The position numbers and the translations under genes are program-made. Below the pieces are notes generated by a model. It searched no databases. It worked only from the letters and a program-made list of their open reading frames with translations, and was not told the origin of the DNA. Positions 33,873 through 62,596 of a stretch of DNA of 64,000 nt are shown here, in pieces (the stretch's first letter is position 1; each line of letters starts with the position of its first letter). Source of the stretch: an uncultured Lachnospiraceae bacterium. Lineage in GTDB: Bacteria; Bacillota; Clostridia; Lachnospirales; Lachnospiraceae. Where the stretch lies: the NCBI GenBank assembly GCA_947626475.1, contig CANQSK010000001.1, positions 22,071 to 86,070 of the forward strand, read 5' to 3'.

Positions 33873-35066
33873 TCAGACCAGATATTTCCGGATGAAATAC
33901 GCCGGCGTTCCGCTCCATGCGTGGCAGAAGCTGTTGATCAGACGGTCGCCGTAGGGGGAGGCAAACCGGTCTGACCGGTCGTAGACCTCGTAAAACGTAT
34001 CCGCGCCTTCCCGGGCCATGCCGCCCCAGTAGGAGCGGATCGTATCCGCCGCAATGCCGGTCAGGCCATTCTCCATGAGGGCTTCCACAAAATAGTGGTA
34101 CATGTAGGGAGTCGCCATCTTAACCGGCGGATCCTCCTGTATGAGGCGTTTGAGCAGTTTGCAGTTCTTCTCCCGGTCGAAAACCTCAGCCAGGACGAAC
34201 CATACCTGGGAAGCCCAGGAAAACTGCCGTCTTTTGCCGCTTACAAAGAGTCCGGTCTCCGCATCCCACAGACAGGACAGGGCTTCCTCCGTGACCAGAT
34301 CCGCCTGACGTCCGTAATATTCCGCCTTCTGACTGTCCTTCAGCCACAGGGCCATCTGCCGCGCCTGCTTCAGGGCGTAGATCAGGATCGCCTGGGCACC
34401 GGCCTGCTTGTTCAGTCCTTCGCCCCAGTCAAGAAAACACCACCAGGTTTCCCTGTCCCGCACCACGCCCCGTTCGTCCAGCTCAGCCAGGGACAGCTCA
34501 ATCTGCCGTTCCGCCGTGGGGAACAGCTCCCGCAGCGTCTCCATATCCTCTGTCTCCTTGCCTCTGACGATCAGCTTATATTTGGGGGAGGTGTCGATCA
34601 CGCTGATTTCCAGGTAGCGGAAGGCGTACCGGCGGGGCAGCCGCACCTCAGCCGGGAGCACGTCTATATGGAGATATTCCTCCTGGAGCCAGCTGCGGCT
34701 GATATCGCCGTGATAACCGGCGAAATCCCTTCCCATTTCATAGGGGATCTCTCTCAGCCTGATCCGCAGATAGGCGGGCGAGTCCTGGGGACTTCCCACT
34801 GATTCCAGGCGCAGGGCGATATATCCCATATGATGACCGCCGAAATCCAGGCACACGGACTCTCCCCTTACGAGGGCCCGCCGGGAAAGATCGTCTGCCT
34901 CTCCCGCCGGCTCCGCCGCAAAATCATCCCCCTGCTTACAGATCCGAACCAGGCGGACTGGACTGACGCGTCTTTCGGAAAGCTTCGGCTTTAGGGCCTC
35001 AGCCTTCTCTAAAAAAACAGGATTTACGGTCATCTTAAAATCGGGAATGCTGTTGATAATGTCCAT
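33873..35066 (-). pseudogene. Alpha-L-rhamnosidase-like (GH78) protein with probable internal in-frame deletion
   Basis: N- and C-terminal parts resemble Lachnospiraceae sugar hydrolases (HMGYIALRLES; CFLDWGEGLNKQAGAQAILIYALKQ) but the expected central catalytic segment is absent at YKLIVRGKETEDMETL. Confidence 0.6.
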
Positions 35067-35081
35067 ATGCGTCTCCTCCCA

Positions 35082-36158
35082 TTACGGCGTGGGAATCAGG
35101 ACCGACAGCCGGAACCACCCGTCCCCGGCGTCTGTCTGCATGGAACCGCCGTGCCGGTCCGTGATCATCTTCATGCTTTTGATCCCATATCCGTGAAAAT
35201 TCTTGTCTTCTTTTGACGTCTCAGCCGGAAGCCCGTTCCGAAAACGGATCTCTCCCTCATATCGGTTTTCCACACGAATGCGGAGAAAGCCCTTGTGCTG
35301 TCCGATGGAGACCGACACCAGCCTCTCCCCATCGGAGACGCCGCTTTTCAGATAGGTGATCTGGTGCTTCAGGTCATGATATTTGCGGTTGACCAGATCG
35401 ATGCTCTCCTCTGTGACCCGGTAATTCTCATACTGCTGCTCCACCACATGCTGAAGGCTGTCGATCTCCTTCTGCCGCAGGGCTTCCTGAATGACCATCC
35501 GGTAGCTGAACAGGATCGCCAGACCTCCAAGGTCGGTCAGGGTGTGGATGGTAAAGATCTCCTCCGTCAGCTGGCCGCTGAAGGGGGTGTTTTTCAGCAC
35601 GTAGCTGATGTTGCTTAGTGCAAAAGCGATCACCGTAACGGAAAAGACAGGCAGAAGGTGTCTTTTGGTGATCACAAGAGATTCGTTGGATTCCTGAAAA
35701 CGGCGCTCCAGCTTATACAGGATCCCGAAAACGCTGCCGTGGCAGACAACCAGAAAAAGCAGGTTGGTCCACAGTCTAAGCGGGATCCCCAGCTCCGTAA
35801 GGCCGTAATAAAAGAGCTGCCATTCCAGGGACGCGGCAAACTCTCCCATGATAAAGGCCTGGGCCGTGAAATAAACTGTATTCAGAATGGGTATGGAACA
35901 GGAACTGAAGATCATAAGAAAGATCAGGCCCACATCTACCAGCATGCAGGAGATGAACCATGCCTGCGGCACCAGATTGGTCAAAGTCATAAAGACCCCC
36001 ATAAAAGCCCAGAGTCCGAAGAAGACAAACAGTCGGCGTCTGAACGGCTCCTTATGCCGGTTCAGCCAGACGTAAAGAAAAGCGCTTAACCCGTAAGCAA
36101 GCGCATAGTAAATCCCAGGCGTATTCGTCAGATCTCCATTCGATCTATACATGAGCAA
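35082..36158 (-). pseudogene. AgrC/GHKL-type sensor kinase with probable internal deletion removing ATPase N-box
   Basis: TM N-terminus, KYHDLKHQITYL H-box, then directly SDGERLVSVSIGQHKGFLRIRVENRYEGEIRF...FHGYGIKSMKMI; no NALDNAIE-type N-box. Confidence 0.6.
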
Positions 36159-36184
36159 GTACTCCTCTCATACGTTACGCTCGG

Positions 36185-36997
36185 TTATCCGTTGATAAAC
36201 TGGTTCAAGGCGTCCATAAACTCCTTTTTGTGAGTGTGGCCACCGTTATCATATCCTTTCCCACCTGGACGTCATAACCGGAAACACCGTCCACAAAAGC
36301 CAGATTTACCAGATAGCCCTTGTTGCACCGAAAGAAGCCCTCTCCCCTCAGTTCTTCCACCACATCCCGGATGGCGCCCTTGGCCGTGAAATCGCCGTCT
36401 GTCATATGGAACGTCAGGTCGTGATCCCGCACTTCCACGAAGCGGATGTTCTGCACCTCCAGCTGCCGCTGTTCCGTCTGTGGAAGCCAGCAGCTGATCG
36501 GTGTACATGGAGGCGGGAATCTCGCCCACCATGTAAACAGCGGGCTGCTCCCAGGTCGCTTCAAAGGATGGAACCAGACCGGCGCCGGGGAAGAAGGTGG
36601 TCCTCGTGTAGGCAAAGGCCTCGTCGCTGGCGTACAGCCCGATCATATCCTGGTTCAGCTGAAATCCTCTGGATCCCAGCGCTCCCATAATATCCGCGTT
36701 TTCCTGCCCGTCCGCAGCTGCCGCGGTGGAACCGATCATGCCGCCCCGGGCCGGGAACAGGGAGTTATGGCCCCAGACCGTCACCGGCTCGGACGCCGGA
36801 TCCATGGGAAGGGCCTGGTTCTCATTTTTTAAAAGCACAGTGCCCTCTCCGCTGATCTGAGTCGCCAGATCGATCTTGGCGGCAACCAGGTCGGAAAGGC
36901 TGCTGAACTCGGATTTATAATAATAGGTGTCCTGGGCGGCATCCCCCGTCTCTACCAGCCTCATGCTACTTGTGATTTTATCATTTCGGGGAACCAA
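36185..36997 (-). pseudogene. Chimeric remnant: GH3 beta-glucosidase-like fragment joined to LytTR DNA-binding domain fragment, frameshifted
   Basis: 36997-~36475 frame reads GH3-like ISGEGTVLLKNENQALPMD...; ~36490-36205 in another frame reads QNIRFVEVRDHDLTFHMTDGDFTAKGAIRDVVEELRGEGFFRCNKGYLVNLAFV (LytTR); last KKEFMDALNQFING* is in a third frame after an A5 run. Confidence 0.8.
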
Positions 36998-37044
36998 TGA
37001 TCATTGTCCCCCCATATTCTTACACAGCATCCCGATCCGGCCGG

Positions 37045-38268
37045 TCAGGCCAGATCAAAGGAAATAAAATCAAAGGTTCCCTTGCCTACAATGCTGAAGT
37101 ACAATGCCTCCTTCTCTCTCAGGCCTTCCGGAAGCTTCCCGGAAAACTTATGAGCCGTCTTGCAGGTCTTGACCGGAATGCGGCAGATGACATCGCCCTT
37201 CTCTTCCTTCCGGACGACGACGGCGCACTCTCCGTAGCCCTGAAGCTCCACCCGGATCTTCGTCGCTTCGCGCAGGTCAAAATACTTGAATCCCACGGTG
37301 CAGTCGGTGCAGAAGTTGGACACGTACTGGTCCGGCCCCTCTTCCCTGTCGCCGCCCTTCTGCGTCAGGAAGGGATTCAGTCCCTTGCGGTATTTGACCG
37401 TGGACATAAACTGAGTCCCGTTCTTTCCGTAGACGTTGCAGGCTATGTAAGTGGGATAATGGCCTTTTCCGGCCAGGGGTTTCCCGTTCAGGCCGCAGGA
37501 GGTCATTTCCGCCTGGTAGAATTTTCCGTCCTCAAAGCGGATCTGCTCCGCGCAGGCCGATGTCGCTGCAGCTTACCAGAATGCCGCCGTATGTAAACCC
37601 TTCCGTGGGTTTGTCACTGACCGCGTAGCAGAGGTTGTGACTGTTTAAAGAACTGTAGATGAAATAATATTTTCCGTTAAATTTACGCATGGAGCTGGCT
37701 TCGCCGAAGGGCTGCTCCTCATAGGGCGTTCCTTTGGCCTCCTGGCCCGTAAGCACGCCGATATAGTGGAGATCATCCCCGGAGATAACCGTAAGCATGT
37801 CCTTCGTGTCAATTCCATCAGGCATCCGGGGTCAAACTGGAAAGGCTCGTTCCGTTTTCCGATGGGAGTACCGTCCTGATATTTGACGTACCCGTAGAAC
37901 TCGTACTTTCCTGCCGGCTCGTCACATACCGCCACGGAAATCATTTTGGTGCCGCCCATGAAATAATACAGATAGTACCGCCCGTCGGGACCCACTACCA
38001 TATCCGGCGCCGAAAGCCCGTTGGTCACGCGGACTCTGGGAGCGGCCGGATCCTGCTCCCTTTTGTAGATGCAGCCGTGATACTTCCAGTTGGCCAGATC
38101 GTCTACAGGGGCGGACCAGCAGACATAGTCGCCGAAACAGAAATTGATCCCGTTGAACAGATCGTGGGAACCATATACGTAGACCCTTCCGTCTACGATA
38201 TGAGGTTCTGCGTCGGGCACATATTCCCAGCTGGGGAGATAGGGATTAAACGCCTGCTTTGCCTTCAT
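37045..38268 (-). pseudogene. GH43-family glycosidase broken by two internal junctions
   Basis: AFNPYLPSWEYVPDAEPHIVDGRVYVYGSHD start; frame changes at ~37826 (FDPG|..KDMLTVISGDD) and ~37560 (SDIG|CAEQIRFEDG). Confidence 0.85.
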
Positions 38269-44136: not shown

Positions 44137-44724
44137 TCAGATTACTCCCTTTGTGGACAGAACCCCCGCAATCCTCTCGTCATACCGGGTGGCGTCGTCC
44201 AGCGCCTTGGCAAAAGCCTTGAAGGCCCCTTCGATAATATGATGGTTGTTGAACCCGTTTAACTGTTTTATGTGCAGGTTCATCTCCGCGCCATAAGACA
44301 CGGCATAGAAGAACTCGCGGATCATCTCTGTCTCCAGCTCTCCTACTTTCTCCCGGTCCAGATTCAGTTCATATACCAGATAGGGCCTGCCGCTCAGGTC
44401 AACGGCGCACAGAATCAGGGCGTCGTCCATGGGAAGGATCTTGGAGCCGAAACGGACGATTCCTTTTTTGTCCCCAACAGCTTCCCTGATCGCTTTTCCC
44501 AGCACGATTCCCGTATCCTCAATGGTGTGATGGGTATCCACACAGAGATCGCCGTCCACCTTCACCTTCAAATCAAAAAGTCCGTGGCGGGCAAAGCCGT
44601 CCAGCATATGGTCAAAAAAACCGATGCCTGTGGAAATATCCGCTTTTCCGCTGCCGTCCAGATTCAAACTCAGGGAAATCCTAGTTTCTTTCGTGTTGCG
44701 CTCTACCGACGCTGTTCTTGCCAT
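44137..44724 (-). CDS. hisB: Imidazoleglycerol-phosphate dehydratase
   Basis: TGIGFFDHMLDGFARHGLFDLKVKVDGDLCVDTHHTIEDTGIVLG. Confidence 0.97.
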   Translation of the reverse strand: MARTASVERNTKETRISLSLNLDGSGKADISTGIGFFDHMLDGFARHGLFDLKVKVDGDLCVDTHHTIEDTGIVLGKAIREAVGDKKGIVRFGSKILPMDDALILCAVDLSGRPYLVYELNLDREKVGELETEMIREFFYAVSYGAEMNLHIKQLNGFNNHHIIEGAFKAFAKALDDATRYDERIAGVLSTKGVI

Positions 44725-44769
44725 TGTACCGCACCTCCGGTTTTATCATATATTCATAAAATGATTACG

Positions 44770-46062
44770 CTATTTCTCAAACCGCACCCGTATGGAATTG
44801 GCGTGAGCCGTCAGACGCTCCGCCTCCGCAAAGGCGATAATGTCCTCATGCACCGGCTCCAGGGCCTCCCGGGAGTAATAGATCACGCTGGATTTCTTGA
44901 TGAAATCGTCCACTCCCAGGGGGGAGAAGAACTTGGCGGTGCCGTTGGTGGGCAGGACATGGTTTGGTCCGGCGAAATAATCCCCCAGCGGCTCGGAACT
45001 GTACTCTCCCAGGAAAATAGCTCCCGCGTTCTGGATCCCGGTCATCACCTCAAAAGGATTTCTGGTTACGATCTCCAGATGCTCCGAAGCGATCTCATTG
45101 GCTGCGGCAACTGCGTCCTCCATATTCTCCGCCACCAGGATATAGCCGAAGTTCTCCAGGGATTTTTCCAGGATCTCTCTCCGTGAAAGCTCTGGCAGAA
45201 ACCCGTCGATCTCGGCGGAAACCGCCTCCGCCAGATCTCTGCTGGTGGTCACCAGGATAGCGCTTGCCAGCTCGTCATGCTCCGCCTGGGACAAAAGGTC
45301 GGCCGCCACATAGCGGGGATTGGCCGTCTCATCGGCCAGAACCAGAATCTCGCTGGGCCCGGCAATGCTGTCGATGCTCACATGACCGTAGACCGCCTTC
45401 TTGGCCAGAGCCACAAAAATATTGCCGGGGCCTACGATCTTGTTGACTCTGGGAACTGATTCCGTCCCGAAAGCCAGCGCCGCGATGGCCTGTGCTCCTC
45501 CAACTTTATAAACCTCCGTCGCGCCGGCCAGATGGGCCGCCGTCAGTGTGACCGGATTCACCTTTCCGTCCTTTCCGGGAGGCGTCACCATGACGATCCG
45601 TCTGACCCCGGCCACCTCGGCGGGAATAATGTTCATGAGCACAGAAGAAGGATAAGCCGCCTTGCCGCCCGGCACATAGACGCCTACGCTCTCCAGGGCC
45701 GTTATCTTCTGCCCCAGGATCCGTCCGTCCGGCTTGCTGTCAAACCAGCTGTGGCGCACCTGCATCTGATGATACTCACGGATGTTTTTCATGGCCTTCT
45801 TCATAACTTCAAGAAGAGACTCATCTACCTGAGCCTCCGCCTCCGCGATCTCCTCTTCCGTCACGCGGATAGTCTCCGCCGTGATATCCGCGCCGTCAAA
45901 TTTTTTGGTGTAGGCAAACAGCGCTTCATCCTTCTGCTCTTTCACCGCGTCCACAATCTCCTGGACGGTTCTGGCGTACTTGCCGTAGTTGTTGGGATCC
46001 CTCTTCAGCAAATCCGATAAAATATTTTTTCTGCTTGTCTCATCTAAGGTTATGATACGCAT
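44770..46062 (-). CDS. hisD: Histidinol dehydrogenase
   Basis: GGKAAYPSSVLMNIIPAEVAGV, IDSIAGPSEILVLAD. Confidence 0.97.
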   Translation of the reverse strand: MRIITLDETSRKNILSDLLKRDPNNYGKYARTVQEIVDAVKEQKDEALFAYTKKFDGADITAETIRVTEEEIAEAEAQVDESLLEVMKKAMKNIREYHQMQVRHSWFDSKPDGRILGQKITALESVGVYVPGGKAAYPSSVLMNIIPAEVAGVRRIVMVTPPGKDGKVNPVTLTAAHLAGATEVYKVGGAQAIAALAFGTESVPRVNKIVGPGNIFVALAKKAVYGHVSIDSIAGPSEILVLADETANPRYVAADLLSQAEHDELASAILVTTSRDLAEAVSAEIDGFLPELSRREILEKSLENFGYILVAENMEDAVAAANEIASEHLEIVTRNPFEVMTGIQNAGAIFLGEYSSEPLGDYFAGPNHVLPTNGTAKFFSPLGVDDFIKKSSVIYYSREALEPVHEDIIAFAEAERLTAHANSIRVRFEK

Positions 46063-46089: not shown

Positions 46090-46746
46090 TCAGACCGTAT
46101 CCGCCTGCCTCGCCAGAAGCTGCTTCAGGTCTCGGATCATTTTATTGATCCTCTCGTTCTCACGCTTCATGCTTACCTGGTTTACGATGACTCTGGCCGA
46201 CAGATCGCAGATCTCCTCCAGCACCGTCAATCCGTTCTCCCGCAGTGTGGAGCCGGTCTCCACAATGTCCACGATCACTTCGGACAGTCCCACTAACGGC
46301 GCCAGCTCAATGGAGCCGTTCAGCTTGATGATCTCCACGGTCTGGTGCTTCTTATTATAGAAATAATCCTTGGCAATGTTGGGATATTTTGTCGCCACGC
46401 GGATCAGCTCATGGTGCTTCAGCCGCTCTCTGGCTGATTCCGGGCCGCAGACACACATTTTGCACCGTCCTGTCCCCAGATCGATCACCTCATACAGCTT
46501 CCGGCCTTCCTCCAGGATCACATCCTTGCCGGAGATTCCGATATCGGCGGCCCCATACTCCACATAGGTAGGCACATCATTGGCTTTCGCAAGAAAGAAG
46601 CGGATTCCCAGCTCCTCATTGGTGAAGATCAGCTTGCGGGTATTCTTATCCTTCATCTCCTCACAGGAGATGCCGATCTGCTCCAGAAGCTCCATAGTCT
46701 TAAAAGCCAGCCGCCCCTTGGTCAGGGCAATGGTGAGATACCTCAT
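46090..46746 (-). CDS. hisG: ATP phosphoribosyltransferase (short form)
   Basis: [52 protein letters not shown]. Confidence 0.97.
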
Positions 46747-47990: not shown

Positions 47991-48145
47991 AGCTCCTCCC
48001 GAATTGAAATACGTCACTTTAATGTAGCGCAGTGCTAATTTAATAACGTGCCATGATTATACTAAAGCCTTACCTCTTTGTCAATCCTTTCAGCAAAGAA
48101 TCCTCCGGCCCGTCAATCTCTCCGAAGGATTCTCAGATAAACATC

Positions 48146-49576
48146 TTATTTTCCGCAGTTTCCGGTACATCCGTCAAAGCAGTAGGTACACAGCTTACAC
48201 TTGGGCAGGCCGATGGATTTCACCAGATCGTCCAGCCGGTGGTATCTGAGGGTGGTAAAATTCTGCTGCCTGCAGATGTCCTTCAGCATGGCGCTGTAGC
48301 GGTCGCTCTCCGGGTCCGCGTACTCGGCCAGGGTATTCTCCGCGTTCTCCCCTTCTCTTGCCAGAATGACTCTCCTGGCGATCAGATCCAGATCCGACTG
48401 GGAACGGGAGAAATTCAGATACCGGCAGCCGTACACCAGAGGCGGGCAGGCGGGGCGCACATGAACCTCCTTCGCTCCGCTCTGGTAGAGAAATTCCGTT
48501 GTCTCCCTCAGCTGGGTGCCGCGCACAATGGAATCGTCGATCAGCAGCAGTTTCCGGTTCTCGATCAGGGCCCGTACCGGGATCAGCTTCATCCTGGCGA
48601 TCAGATTTCTCTGGTTCTGGCTGGTCGGCATAAAGGACCTGGGCCAGGTAGGCGTGTATTTGATAAACGGTCTCGTGAAGGGAATCTTGGACTCATTGGC
48701 GTAGCCGATGGCGTGGGCCGTCCCGGAATCAGGAACCCCTGCCACCATATCCGGCTGGACATCGCCGGCCGCCATATCCCGCTTTGCCAGCATGCTGCCG
48801 CAGCGGTAACGCATTTCTTCCACATTGATCCCCTCGTAGGAGGACGGCGGATATCCGTAATACACCCACAGGAAGGAACAGATCTGCAGCTGACTTCCGG
48901 GAGCTGCCAGCTGCTCCATGCCGTCCGGCGTCATCCGGACGATCTCACCGGGGCCCAGCTCACGCTCATCTGAATATCCCAGATTCATGTAGGCGAAATT
49001 CTCAAAGGAAATACAGTAGGCGTTCTCCTTCTTTCCGATCACAAGAGGAGTCCGGCCCACCCGGTCTCTTGCGGCGATAATGCCGTCCTTTGTCAGAAGC
49101 AGAAGCGTCATGGAACCGTCCACGATCTTCTGGACGTACTGAATGCCTTCCACCAGGCTGTCACATTTGCAGATCAGGGACGCCATCAGCTCCGTCACGT
49201 TGACCTGGCCGCTGGTCATCTCCTGGAAATGGGTATTTCCCTGAGAATAGACCTGCCTGAGGAGTTCGTCGTAATTATTTACTTTGCCGACTGTCACGAT
49301 AGCGAAGCTTCCCAAATGGGACTGGATGATCAGCGGCTGGGGCTCATAGTCGGAAATGCAGGCGATGCCGTAATATCCCTTCATCTCCTCCACGTCCCGC
49401 TCAAATTTGGTGCGGAAAGGGGAATTTTCAATGTTGTGAATCGCCCGGTTGAAGCCATCCTCGCCGTAGGTCGCCATGCCGCCTCGCCTGGTTCCCAGGT
49501 GAGAATGGTAGTCTACTCCGTAAAACAATTCATGTGTACAGTTCTGTCTCGATACAACTCCAAAAATGCCGCCCAT
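48146..49576 (-). CDS. Amidophosphoribosyltransferase-like (PurF family), N-terminus MGGIFGV
   Basis: SHLGTRRGGMATYGEDG Ntn domain; LLLIDDSIVRGTQLRETTEFL PRPP motif; start at 49576 with AAGGAG RBS. Confidence 0.88.
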   Translation of the reverse strand: MGGIFGVVSRQNCTHELFYGVDYHSHLGTRRGGMATYGEDGFNRAIHNIENSPFRTKFERDVEEMKGYYGIACISDYEPQPLIIQSHLGSFAIVTVGKVNNYDELLRQVYSQGNTHFQEMTSGQVNVTELMASLICKCDSLVEGIQYVQKIVDGSMTLLLLTKDGIIAARDRVGRTPLVIGKKENAYCISFENFAYMNLGYSDERELGPGEIVRMTPDGMEQLAAPGSQLQICSFLWVYYGYPPSSYEGINVEEMRYRCGSMLAKRDMAAGDVQPDMVAGVPDSGTAHAIGYANESKIPFTRPFIKYTPTWPRSFMPTSQNQRNLIARMKLIPVRALIENRKLLLIDDSIVRGTQLRETTEFLYQSGAKEVHVRPACPPLVYGCRYLNFSRSQSDLDLIARRVILAREGENAENTLAEYADPESDRYSAMLKDICRQQNFTTLRYHRLDDLVKSIGLPKCKLCTYCFDGCTGNCGK

Positions 49577-49664
49577 GCACGATTCTCCTTTTTGTACGTT
49601 CTGCAGCCCTTCAAAATCCGGCGGCTGCGGCGCTCTCATAAATTTAGCAATAGAAGTGTAGCAT

Positions 49665-51812: not shown

Positions 51813-52598
51813 TCACAGAAAGCGCCCTTTCCACAAAAAATCCATGAAAAGCGGCACCTGCTTCTCCCAGTCCGCCTCACAGTGATTTCCGCCTGTCTGG
51901 CAGTAGATCTGAGTAGCGGCACCGTACATGCCGATATATTTGGCGATGGAACGGTTCCTCCGGGACGTATAGCTTTTCATATCCTCATGCCAGTGGTCCG
52001 TGACGCCCCTGGCCTCCCTGGTCCCCCAGGACAGATACACCCTGGTGTCCGCATCCATCCAGCTTTCCTTCAGATCCCGATAGACATTCGGCATGCAGAA
52101 GCCTACGGCGCTGGACACGCAGGCCGCTTTGGAAAAGCACCAGTTATAGCGGACAACCCCGTACAGGGCCATAAGTCCGCCCATGCTGGAACCGGCGATC
52201 CCTGTGCACCGCCGGTCCGGATAGGTACGGTATTCCCGGTCAATAAAGGGCTTCACATCTCCCGTGATCCACTGAAAGGTAGCATCCCCCTTCGGCTCCA
52301 TCCGGCTGAAAAATCCCCAGGCGACCCTGTAAGGGCAATATTCGCTGAGCCTCTGATCGCCCTCATGTCCGCACTCGATCCCCACAATGATCATCGGCTT
52401 ATCCCATCCGTCAAGAAATTCCTTCAGACCCCAGCTCTTGCCGTAGGTAGCGTCACTGTCATAGTACAGATTATGACCGTCGAAGAAATACATGACCGGA
52501 TACCGCTCATCCGTATCATAGTAGGAATCCGGCAGATAAATATGGAGCCTCCGGTTCTGCATGGCCGGAGGATACCAGAAGTCCTGTTTTACTACCAT
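51813..52598 (-). CDS. Esterase D-type alpha/beta hydrolase
   Basis: RRLHIYLPDSYYDTDERYPVMYFFDGHNLY; CTGIAGSSMGGLMALY. Confidence 0.92.
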   Translation of the reverse strand: MVVKQDFWYPPAMQNRRLHIYLPDSYYDTDERYPVMYFFDGHNLYYDSDATYGKSWGLKEFLDGWDKPMIIVGIECGHEGDQRLSEYCPYRVAWGFFSRMEPKGDATFQWITGDVKPFIDREYRTYPDRRCTGIAGSSMGGLMALYGVVRYNWCFSKAACVSSAVGFCMPNVYRDLKESWMDADTRVYLSWGTREARGVTDHWHEDMKSYTSRRNRSIAKYIGMYGAATQIYCQTGGNHCEADWEKQVPLFMDFLWKGRFL

Positions 52599-52601
52599 TT
52601 A

Positions 52602-52853
52602 CTAAGCCTCATAGGCGGCTCTTACCGCCTTAGCCAGCTGATCGGCACAAGACGTGGGTCTGGGCCCGCAGGTATTTCCCGACAGAATGGACTCGATCTG
52701 TTCCACCGTCATTCCCTCCACCAGCTTTGAGATCGCCTTCAGATTGCCGTTGCAGCCGCCCACAAAACTGACATTATGTACCACGTTGCCGTCCAGATCC
52801 ATGCTGATCACCTGGGAGCAGGTTCCCTTAGTCATATAATCAAAATGCTTCAT
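52602..52853 (-). CDS. TIGR03905-type TSCPD domain protein
   Basis: GTCSQVISMDLDGNVVHNVSFVGGCNGNLKAISKLVEGM...CGPRPTSCADQLAKAV. Confidence 0.93.
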   Translation of the reverse strand: MKHFDYMTKGTCSQVISMDLDGNVVHNVSFVGGCNGNLKAISKLVEGMTVEQIESILSGNTCGPRPTSCADQLAKAVRAAYEA

Positions 52854-53857: not shown

Positions 53858-53868
53858 ACGGTTATCCT

Positions 53869-55149
53869 TCACCCACAGAAATCCTCAATTGCCTTTCCGA
53901 TATCATGACGCATATATTTGTTGCCGAACTGTATCCATTCTGTCGCCCCGTAAGCGTTGTCGCGGGCTTCCTTGAGGCTGGCTCCCAGGGCGGTCACGCC
54001 AAGGACACGTCCGCCGTTGGTTACAATATCGCCCTCATCATTAAACTTGCTTCCCGCATGGAATACGTAGTAGCCGTCATTTCCCTCAAAGCGGTCCAGA
54101 CCTGAGATGACGAACCCTTTCTCATAATGCTCCGGATACCCCTTGCTGGCCAGCACCACGCACACCGCCGCATTGTCCTCAAACTCCAGTTCAATCTGAT
54201 CCAGAGTGCCGTCAATACAGGCCTCAAACACATCGATAATGTCATTTTTCATTCTGGGAAGCACAACCTGGGTCTCCGGGTCACCGAAGCGGGCGTTGTA
54301 CTCCAGCACCTTGGGACCGTCCGCCGTCAGCATCAGGCCGAAGAAGATCACGCCCTTAAACTCCCGGCCCTCAGCACGCATGGCGTCCACAGTGGGCTGG
54401 AAAATATGCTCCATACAGTAGCGGTTGATCTCTTCCGTATAGAAGGGGCTGGGAGAAAAGGTTCCCATGCCGCCGGTGTTCAGGCCCTGGTCGCCGTCTT
54501 TGGCCCGCTTGTGATCCTGGGCGGAGGTCATGACCCGGATGGTCCTGCCGTCCACAAAGGACAGCACCGACACCTCTCTTCCGGTCATAAATTCCTCCAC
54601 GACAATGCGGTCACCGGCCGCCCCGAACTGCTTGTCCATCATCAGGGTCTTCACGCCCTCCCTGGCTTCCTCGCGGTCCCGGCAGATGAGGACGCCCTTA
54701 CCCAGAGCCAGCCCGTCCGCCTTCAGGACGATGGGCATGGGCGCCGTCTCAAGATAGGCCAGAGCTGCCTCCGGCGTATCAAACGTCTCGTAGGCCGCCG
54801 TAGGAATGCCGTATTTCTTCATTAAATCCTTGGAAAATGCCTTGGATCCCTCCAGGATAGCCGCATTCTTCCGCGGTCCGAAAGCCCGGATTCCGGCGGC
54901 CTCCAACGCGTCCACCGCACCGGCCGCCAGAGGATCATCAGGGGCAACCACTACCAGGTCGATCTGATTGGCTTTGGCAAACTCCGCCTGCTTCGCAAAA
55001 TCCATGACACCGATATTCACGCACTCGGCCAGGGACGCTATCCCCGCATTGCCCGGCGCGCAGTAAATCTTATCCACCTTCGGACTCTGTGCCGTTTTCC
55101 ACGCGATGGCATGCTCGCGGCCGCCGCTTCCGATAATCAATACCTTCAT
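53869..55149 (-). CDS. purD: Phosphoribosylamine-glycine ligase
   Basis: [35 protein letters not shown]. Confidence 0.98.
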   Translation of the reverse strand: MKVLIIGSGGREHAIAWKTAQSPKVDKIYCAPGNAGIASLAECVNIGVMDFAKQAEFAKANQIDLVVVAPDDPLAAGAVDALEAAGIRAFGPRKNAAILEGSKAFSKDLMKKYGIPTAAYETFDTPEAALAYLETAPMPIVLKADGLALGKGVLICRDREEAREGVKTLMMDKQFGAAGDRIVVEEFMTGREVSVLSFVDGRTIRVMTSAQDHKRAKDGDQGLNTGGMGTFSPSPFYTEEINRYCMEHIFQPTVDAMRAEGREFKGVIFFGLMLTADGPKVLEYNARFGDPETQVVLPRMKNDIIDVFEACIDGTLDQIELEFEDNAAVCVVLASKGYPEHYEKGFVISGLDRFEGNDGYYVFHAGSKFNDEGDIVTNGGRVLGVTALGASLKEARDNAYGATEWIQFGNKYMRHDIGKAIEDFCG

Positions 55150-60658: not shown

Positions 60659-60745
60659 CCTGCTCTCTCCTTCTTCTGAATCCATATTTCCAGCCTCATA
60701 TACTTAATTATCATACCATTTCGCAAAGACGCAGGCAACCGTTTT

Positions 60746-62596
60746 TCAGCCTTTGTTCCCACGTTCCAGAATCTCCATGAATTCCTGTCCGGTTATGGTC
60801 TCTTTCTCGTAGAGATACTGGCTGATCTCGTCCAGCTTGCTCCTGTTCTCCGCCAGAAGCCGGCTGGCCCTGGCATGCTGAGCCTTGACCAGTTCCACTA
60901 CCTTGGCATCAATGGCAGCCGCCGTAGTCTCACTGCAGGCAAGGCTGGAATCCCCGCCCAGATAAGCGTTCTGCACAGTCTCCAGGGCGACCATATCAAA
61001 GTCATCGCTCATTCCGTACCGGGTCACCATGGCCCTGGCCAGCTTGGTAGCCTGCTCAATGTCGTTGCTGGCTCCCGTGGTGACAGAGCCGAATACAAGT
61101 TCCTCAGCGGCGCGGCCTCCGGTAAAGGTGGCGATCTTGTTCAGCAGCTCCTCCTTGCTCATCAGGGCATGGTCCCCGTCCTCCACCTGCATGGTGAAGC
61201 CCAGCGCTCCCGAAGTTCGCGGAACGATCGTAATCTTCTGAACCGGCGCCGAATGACTCTGCAGCGCCGCTACCAGCGCGTGTCCAACCTCATGGTAGGC
61301 CACGATACATTTTTCCTTCTCACTCAGGATGGCGTTCTTCTTCTGAGCGCCTGCCAGGATCGTATCCACCGCCTCCTGGAGGTCCGGCTGAGTAACGCGG
61401 CTGCGGCCGTTGCGCACGGCTCCCAGAGCCGCCTCGTTGACGATATTGGCCAGCTCGGCGCCTGACGCTCCCGGCGTCATCCTTGCGACCACATTGAAGT
61501 CACAATCCGAATCCAGCTTTACCTTCCGGCCATGAAGGCGAAGAATCGCCTCGCGGCCCTTCAGGTCAGGCAGCTCCACAGGAACCCTCCGGTCAAAGCG
61601 GCCGGGCCGCAGAAGCGCCGGATCCAGGCTCTCCGGGCGGTTGGTTGCAGCCAGAATCACCACGCCCTTGGTGGCGTCAAAGCCGTCCATCTCTGTCAGC
61701 AGCTGGTTCAGAGTCTGCTCCCGCTCATCATTGCCGCCCATGCCACTTCCGCTGTCACGTTTCTTTCCAATGGTATCAATCTCGTCAATAAATACGATAC
61801 AAGGCGCTTTCTCACTGGCCTGCTTAAACAGATCCCGAACTTTGCTGGCGCCCATGCCTACGAACATCTCCACAAACTCACTTCCGGCAATGCTGAAGAA
61901 AGGTACCTCCGCCTCACCGGCAACCGCCCTGGCAAGCAGCGTCTTTCCTGTTCCGGGAGGCCCCACAAGCAGCGCTCCCTTGGGCATCTTGGCCCCGATC
62001 TCCTCATATTTTTTCGGGTCGTGAAGGAAACCCACGATCTCCTTCAGGCTTTCTTTCGCCTCATCCTGACCGGCTACATCGCTGAACTTGATGCCGGTCT
62101 TGTCATCCATCACATACTGACGGGCGCCTGACTTGCCGAACATCATGGCGTTCATCCCGCCTCCCCCGCCGGACATCCTGCTGATCCGCCGGCTGAACCA
62201 GGTGGCCAGAAGAATCAACGGCAAAAACGGCAGGATCCAGTTGGTCAGCAGATACTCAAGCACTCCCTGCTTTTTATAGATCCGGCCGAAGCTGACCCCC
62301 GCATCCTCCAGCCTCTGGACGATGGCGTAGTCCTGGGGGATAACATTGGTCTGATACATCTTTTCGTCTTTATCAATAAAATAAATCTGCTCTTCCTCAA
62401 GCTGAACCGTAGACAGCTTCTGTCCCTCCAGCATATTGATAAAGGTTCCGTAATCTACCGTCTGAATCTGCGACTCCAGAACCGCCGGAAACAGAAATAC
62501 ATTCAGCAAAAGCATAATCAGGATTACCAGTCCGTAGGAAACCAAAAACGGACGGCGCTGTTTGCGGGGATCCTGATTGGGATCGTTCTGTTTCAT
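60746..62596 (-). CDS. ftsH: ATP-dependent zinc metalloprotease FtsH
   Basis: [32 protein letters not shown]. Confidence 0.98.

Follow-up and report, generated by a model that had tools for sequence, protein, structure and literature searches.

The window, the whole stretch of 64,000 nucleotides analysed here, comes from a Lachnospiraceae draft genome (3.12 Mb in 207 contigs, probably a metagenome bin), in whose largest contig it spans positions 22071-86070. Between a ybaK gene and a gene for an LprI-like protein, which the initial annotation had considered intact and which are both full length, it carries the following remnants.

33873..35066, minus strand: GH78-like alpha-L-rhamnosidase remnant, a 397-aa open frame from which an in-frame deletion has removed 124 aa, most of them catalytic-domain residues
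35082..36158, minus strand: remnant of a GHKL sensor histidine kinase with its H-box still present; an in-frame loss of 84 aa has taken the N-box
36205..36476, minus strand: what is left of a response regulator, its LytTR DNA-binding part, without the receiver domain
36477..36967, minus strand: GH3 remnant without a start codon, about 160 aa from near the N-terminus
37045..38268, minus strand: GH43 remnant with two deletions (134 and 103 bp), its ORFs in three pieces

A DNA search of 60 relatives, one genome per species, found the locus in two congeneric genomes: G008, where it is on a single 59.6-kb contig, and G024, where it is spread over three contigs (C41, C262 and C194). The latter genome is the rabbit MAG Lapin-001__bin58 of an uncultured Lachnospiraceae bacterium, and C41 matches CANQBN010000041.1. 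Junctions were called by alignment of the window to intact syntenic orthologues, provided by G024 for all of the genes and by G008 for GH78, GH43 and the kinase.

34555..34571: J1, in GH78; best split 34559-34562, the position being imprecise because the flanks have diverged; 0-1 bp of microhomology; 372 bp fewer than in G008 and G024
35324..35332: J2, in the kinase; up to about 4 bp shared, imprecise through the blur of divergence; 252 bp fewer than in both relatives
36476..36477: J3, out-of-frame fusion of LytTR and GH3 with 0-1 bp in common; exact position read by eye from the sequence
36967..37045: J4, at the GH3 5′ end; start region and spacer replaced, net loss 139 bp
37548..37559: J5, in GH43; the ancestral ends carry a direct repeat of 7 bp, GCAGGCC; 134 bp fewer than in both
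37814..37815: J6, in GH43; 0-1 bp shared; 103 bp fewer than in both

The initial annotation, made from the window alone, had placed junctions at about 34560, 35340, 36475, 37826 and 37560 and suggested alignment to intact homologues for defining them. That alignment confirms all five near these positions, with 0-7 bp of shared sequence, and the compact architecture in homologues that would have spoken against its reading is not found: the G024 homologues, and those of GH78, the kinase and GH43 in G008, are intact and longer. Two lesions come in addition to these five: that at the GH3 5′ end (36967-37045) and a 1-nt frameshift in the LytTR fragment near 36241, seen as a 1-nt gap in the alignment.

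The GH78 remnant runs as an open frame from start to stop and has kept its Shine-Dalgarno site. Its GH78_N domain (Pfam) is also kept and Bac_rhamnosid6H is matched only from profile position 114; the intact homologues are of 521 aa in G024 and 536 aa in G008. The N-box, which in G024 reads NGLDNAIEAA, is absent from the window kinase, and the GHKL domain match begins there at profile position 24 as against 3-102 in G024; with its N-box lost the kinase is predicted to be dead. The response regulator is a full Response_reg-LytTR protein in G024 (C41:1738-2439). The GH3 remnant is 84% identical at the DNA level to C262:1246-1748 of that genome, and the match to Glyco_hydro_3_C is weak in the remnant and strong in G024. 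As the GH43 deletions together total a multiple of three, the middle segment is out of frame between outer parts that share a common frame; the G024 homologue is an intact 508-aa open frame.

That the GH78 and kinase deletions are both in frame, with open frames running from start to stop, and that GH78 has conserved codons as well as its ribosome-binding site, would fit retention of the two shortened proteins in an altered but useful form. Such functional remodelling is hardly credible when the kinase has lost its N-box and GH78 about one third of its catalytic domain, the partner regulator is without a receiver and frameshifted, and GH43 and GH3 are plainly broken.

Polysaccharide-utilisation operons of the Lachnospiraceae combine glycosidases with two-component control. 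The intact set in G024, consisting of GH43, GH3, an esterase, a LytTR regulator, a GHKL kinase and GH78, is of this type, whereas in the window all members still present are broken and transporter and esterase are gone. The ancestral gene order is GH43, GH3, putative transporter, esterase, LytTR regulator, sensor kinase and GH78. In G024, homologue comparison puts GH43 and GH3 on C262, and C41 carries the end of a membrane protein followed by the esterase, the receiver-LytTR regulator, the GHKL kinase and GH78. The membrane protein is without a Pfam match and from its sequence is probably a sugar transporter. C262 and C41 would adjoin, judging by gene order in the window and in G008, and with that adjacency and the gene content of the two contigs J3 would have taken out at least about 3.4 kb, spanning the remainder of GH3, the putative transporter, the esterase and the receiver domain.

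All operon proteins of the window are predicted to be broken because of the six net losses (372, 252, an estimated 3,400 or more, about 139, 134 and 103 bp), which strike essential segments or frames: the kinase is without its N-box and the regulator without its receiver, GH78 lacks about one third of its catalytic domain, GH3 is almost entirely gone and the GH43 frame is disrupted. The affected genes are all co-oriented, and the glycosidases with their own two-component regulator form a single functional unit. Since G008 and G024 agree at J1, J2, J5 and J6, the changes there are derived in the window lineage.

G008 has a loss of its own in the same operon. The end of its GH43 is fused in frame to the start of the kinase, so that everything from GH3 to the regulator is missing and a single open frame of 942 aa results; some 3-4 bp (GCAT) are shared at the join. 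The fusion lies at L040:7737-10565 (G008:C12) and comprises a nearly complete GH43 and a full GHKL sensor kinase. Its apparent origin is a deletion that removed the genes in between. As G008 thus lost the middle of the operon independently, the operon is dispensable in the genus.

Direct repeats at the ancestral deletion ends amount to 7 bp at J5, up to about 4 bp, blurred by divergence, at J2 and 0-1 bp at J1, J3 and J6. An origin from long repeats or k-mer collapse was rejected, the junction repeats being just 0-7 bp. At J4 GH3 has lost its start codon together with roughly 35 residues of the N-terminus, and some 78 bp of filler, including the near-palindrome GGGGAACCAATGATCATTGTCCCC at 36985-37010, is in their place; a search for the source of the filler, locally and in the genome, gave nothing above chance, and the near-palindrome has no significant copy elsewhere in the window's genome. 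A gene for Ku was absent from this genome and from 25 congeneric genomes in a search that did detect the Bacillus subtilis positive control. The short overlaps and the lack of Ku fit illegitimate recombination of a Ku-independent kind; the literature on microhomology searched held nothing specific to anaerobic Firmicutes.

The real chromosome might be intact, with the draft contig merely skipping pieces. An assembly or consensus artefact of this sort, which the initial annotation had offered beside a deletion hot spot, would accord with the presence of several deletions and the absence of substitutional decay in GH78 and GH43, with junctions that are mostly blunt, with a draft assembly of 207 contigs, and with the break-up of G024 itself into C41, C262 and C194 at this very locus. 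It is nevertheless disfavoured and considered unlikely. Artefacts should ignore gene function, yet the 134 comparable G008 ORFs reveal no gene-internal deletion elsewhere; the deleted pieces have ordinary GC (0.49-0.55) and were found on none of the other contigs of the genome; the 0-7 bp overlaps would be too short for k-mer collapse; most shortened spacers have kept their Shine-Dalgarno motifs; and the LytTR fragment has an ordinary 1-nt frameshift.

Among the 134 G008 ORFs with homologues in the compared parts of the genome, gene-internal deletions were detected in this cluster only, though the scan is imperfectly sensitive and missed J1, probably because it fell inside one gapped alignment. 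Five independent deletions within 4.4 of about 40 kb of aligned coding DNA have a rough probability of 1.5e-4 by chance, which bears out the earlier remark that the density is unusual for random decay.

Between orthologous neighbour genes, in the part of the genome sampled, spacers tell of a wider tendency. With differences of at least 20 bp counted, window spacers are shorter than those of G008 at 13 sites (3 of them inside the cluster) and longer at none; on three other contigs, with at least 30 bp required and the tally taken from coordinates, 11 gaps are shorter and 2 longer. Pooled over the four contigs this gives 24 shorter and 2 longer than in G008 (sign test, p = 1e-5). Relative to the window, spacers are longer at 5 of 8 sites in the more distant G004; for G001, 4 of 14 are longer and one is shorter. 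The trend in the window is weaker against G024 alone, with 6 longer in G024 and 1 shorter, and this counts against the preferred explanation given below. The spacers of the relatives compared with one another are roughly balanced. In larger samples, with genes called crudely, the median spacer is 29 bp in the window's genome and 70 bp in G008, and most genes adjoining shortened spacers keep a Shine-Dalgarno motif.

Spacers that are often 40-130 bp below those of congeners can be seen at 1625-1681, 44724-44770, 46743-46746, 48017-48146, 52598-52602 and 60685-60746, and also on three other contigs. Extra segments of G008 near 49,600 and 55,171 were not counted as window deletions; they are taken as insertions in G008 because G024 or G001 agrees with the window. 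At 53858-53882 G008 has about 1.16 kb more, and adjoining unmatched DNA is present in G024 and G001 contigs as well; the neighbouring window genes overlap there by 4 bp, a possible clean loss of a whole gene. A different kind of change is at 6556-29837, where about 23 kb is missing at the same position from both G008 and G024 and is likely an insertion in the window lineage.

The spacers suggest a general tendency in the window lineage to lose unselected DNA, of which the operon appears to be part. Since short deletions occur also outside the locus, the cluster has the look of an operon released from selection and not of a sequence-specific hot spot. Six lesions with little point decay, the near-palindrome and unmatched filler at J4, and the separate G008 deletion in the same operon could be read as the outcome of a single burst, for instance multiple breaks re-joined in order, or of local fragile sequence. 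This is decidedly improbable: the junctions have no motif in common, their 0-7 bp of shared sequence differing from one to another, the same kind of loss is found in spacers elsewhere, and the interval that was hit matches a functional unit, the outcome expected from relaxed selection. The earlier proposal of a hot spot or an artefact was right as to dense deletion, and a site-specific hot spot is not needed, given the co-oriented unit, the independent loss in G008 and the shortened spacers elsewhere.

The remaining codons of GH78 and GH43 contain no stops besides the natural one. N/S on the window branch is 30/122 for the two together, like the 29/119 of G008 and lower than for neighbouring genes of the same genome, so that no relaxed selection is detected in what remains and purifying selection is still visible. 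Slow random decay is excluded by this want of neutral drift, and the deletions, unless an artefact, are very young relative to divergence from G008. Alongside six deletions, the data allow for no more than about 12 extra nonsynonymous changes; the deletion-to-substitution ratio is high here, which counts against the preferred explanation. So does the frame outcome, as losses that are multiples of three in GH78, in the kinase and in summed GH43 would be expected in about 4% of cases under pure neutrality. The kinase alone has raised N/S on the window branch (68/70 versus 9/34), mostly in its N-terminal half, which may reflect an earlier loss of constraint or divergence of some other cause. In 16 neighbouring genes N/S is 366/806 on the window branch versus 190/606 in G008 (p = 4e-4; the sum excludes mis-framed codon triples, those with an N/S above 1.5 in at least one species), as expected from weaker selection; a lyase control was out of frame and was dropped from the comparison.

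The explanation preferred, and held to be rather probable, is that an accessory operon for plant-glycan utilisation very recently lost its selection and is being removed by separate deletions under a general deletional bias. The deletions are derived and hit every gene of the unit, spacers are shorter elsewhere, and other compared genes are spared. Selection on the operon would have been lost first and the deletions would have followed, arising one by one by illegitimate recombination and ranging from 100 bp to several kilobases. Ku-independent end joining or replication slippage may have made them. The bias would be lineage-wide, with deletions surviving only where selection is absent. A stronger proposal is that this is a gut Lachnospiraceae lineage in which unselected DNA loses sequence by deletion faster than it gains point mutations, through Ku-independent end joining of low homology, with dispensable operons shredded fast and spacers shrinking genome-wide; as it stands this is doubtful.

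Gene loss of this kind is known; what is unusual is how many lesions there are in a loss that appears so young. Of 378 Salmonella pseudogenes, 346 have just one inactivating mutation (PMC2916853). Those pseudogenes are mostly young and lineage-specific, and as in the window non-functional DNA is deleted before substitutions build up; the window differs in having 4-5 adjacent genes that together bear one small lesion and no fewer than six large ones. Genome compaction through deletion bias under drift is established (PMC5447742) and resembles the lineage-wide spacer loss found here, to which the window lineage adds raised N/S in neighbouring genes. At 3.1 Mb, among congeners of 2.1-6.1 Mb, this differs from a reduced genome and represents mild compaction.

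Were the cluster an artefact after all, it would be a caution for pseudogene counts drawn from draft genomes. If real, the loss of an operon has been caught before substitutions blur the junctions and with a nearly complete ancestral reference at hand, so that the deletion mechanism and the order of loss would be directly readable, and it flags a lineage in which the rate of deletion relative to that of substitution could be measured.
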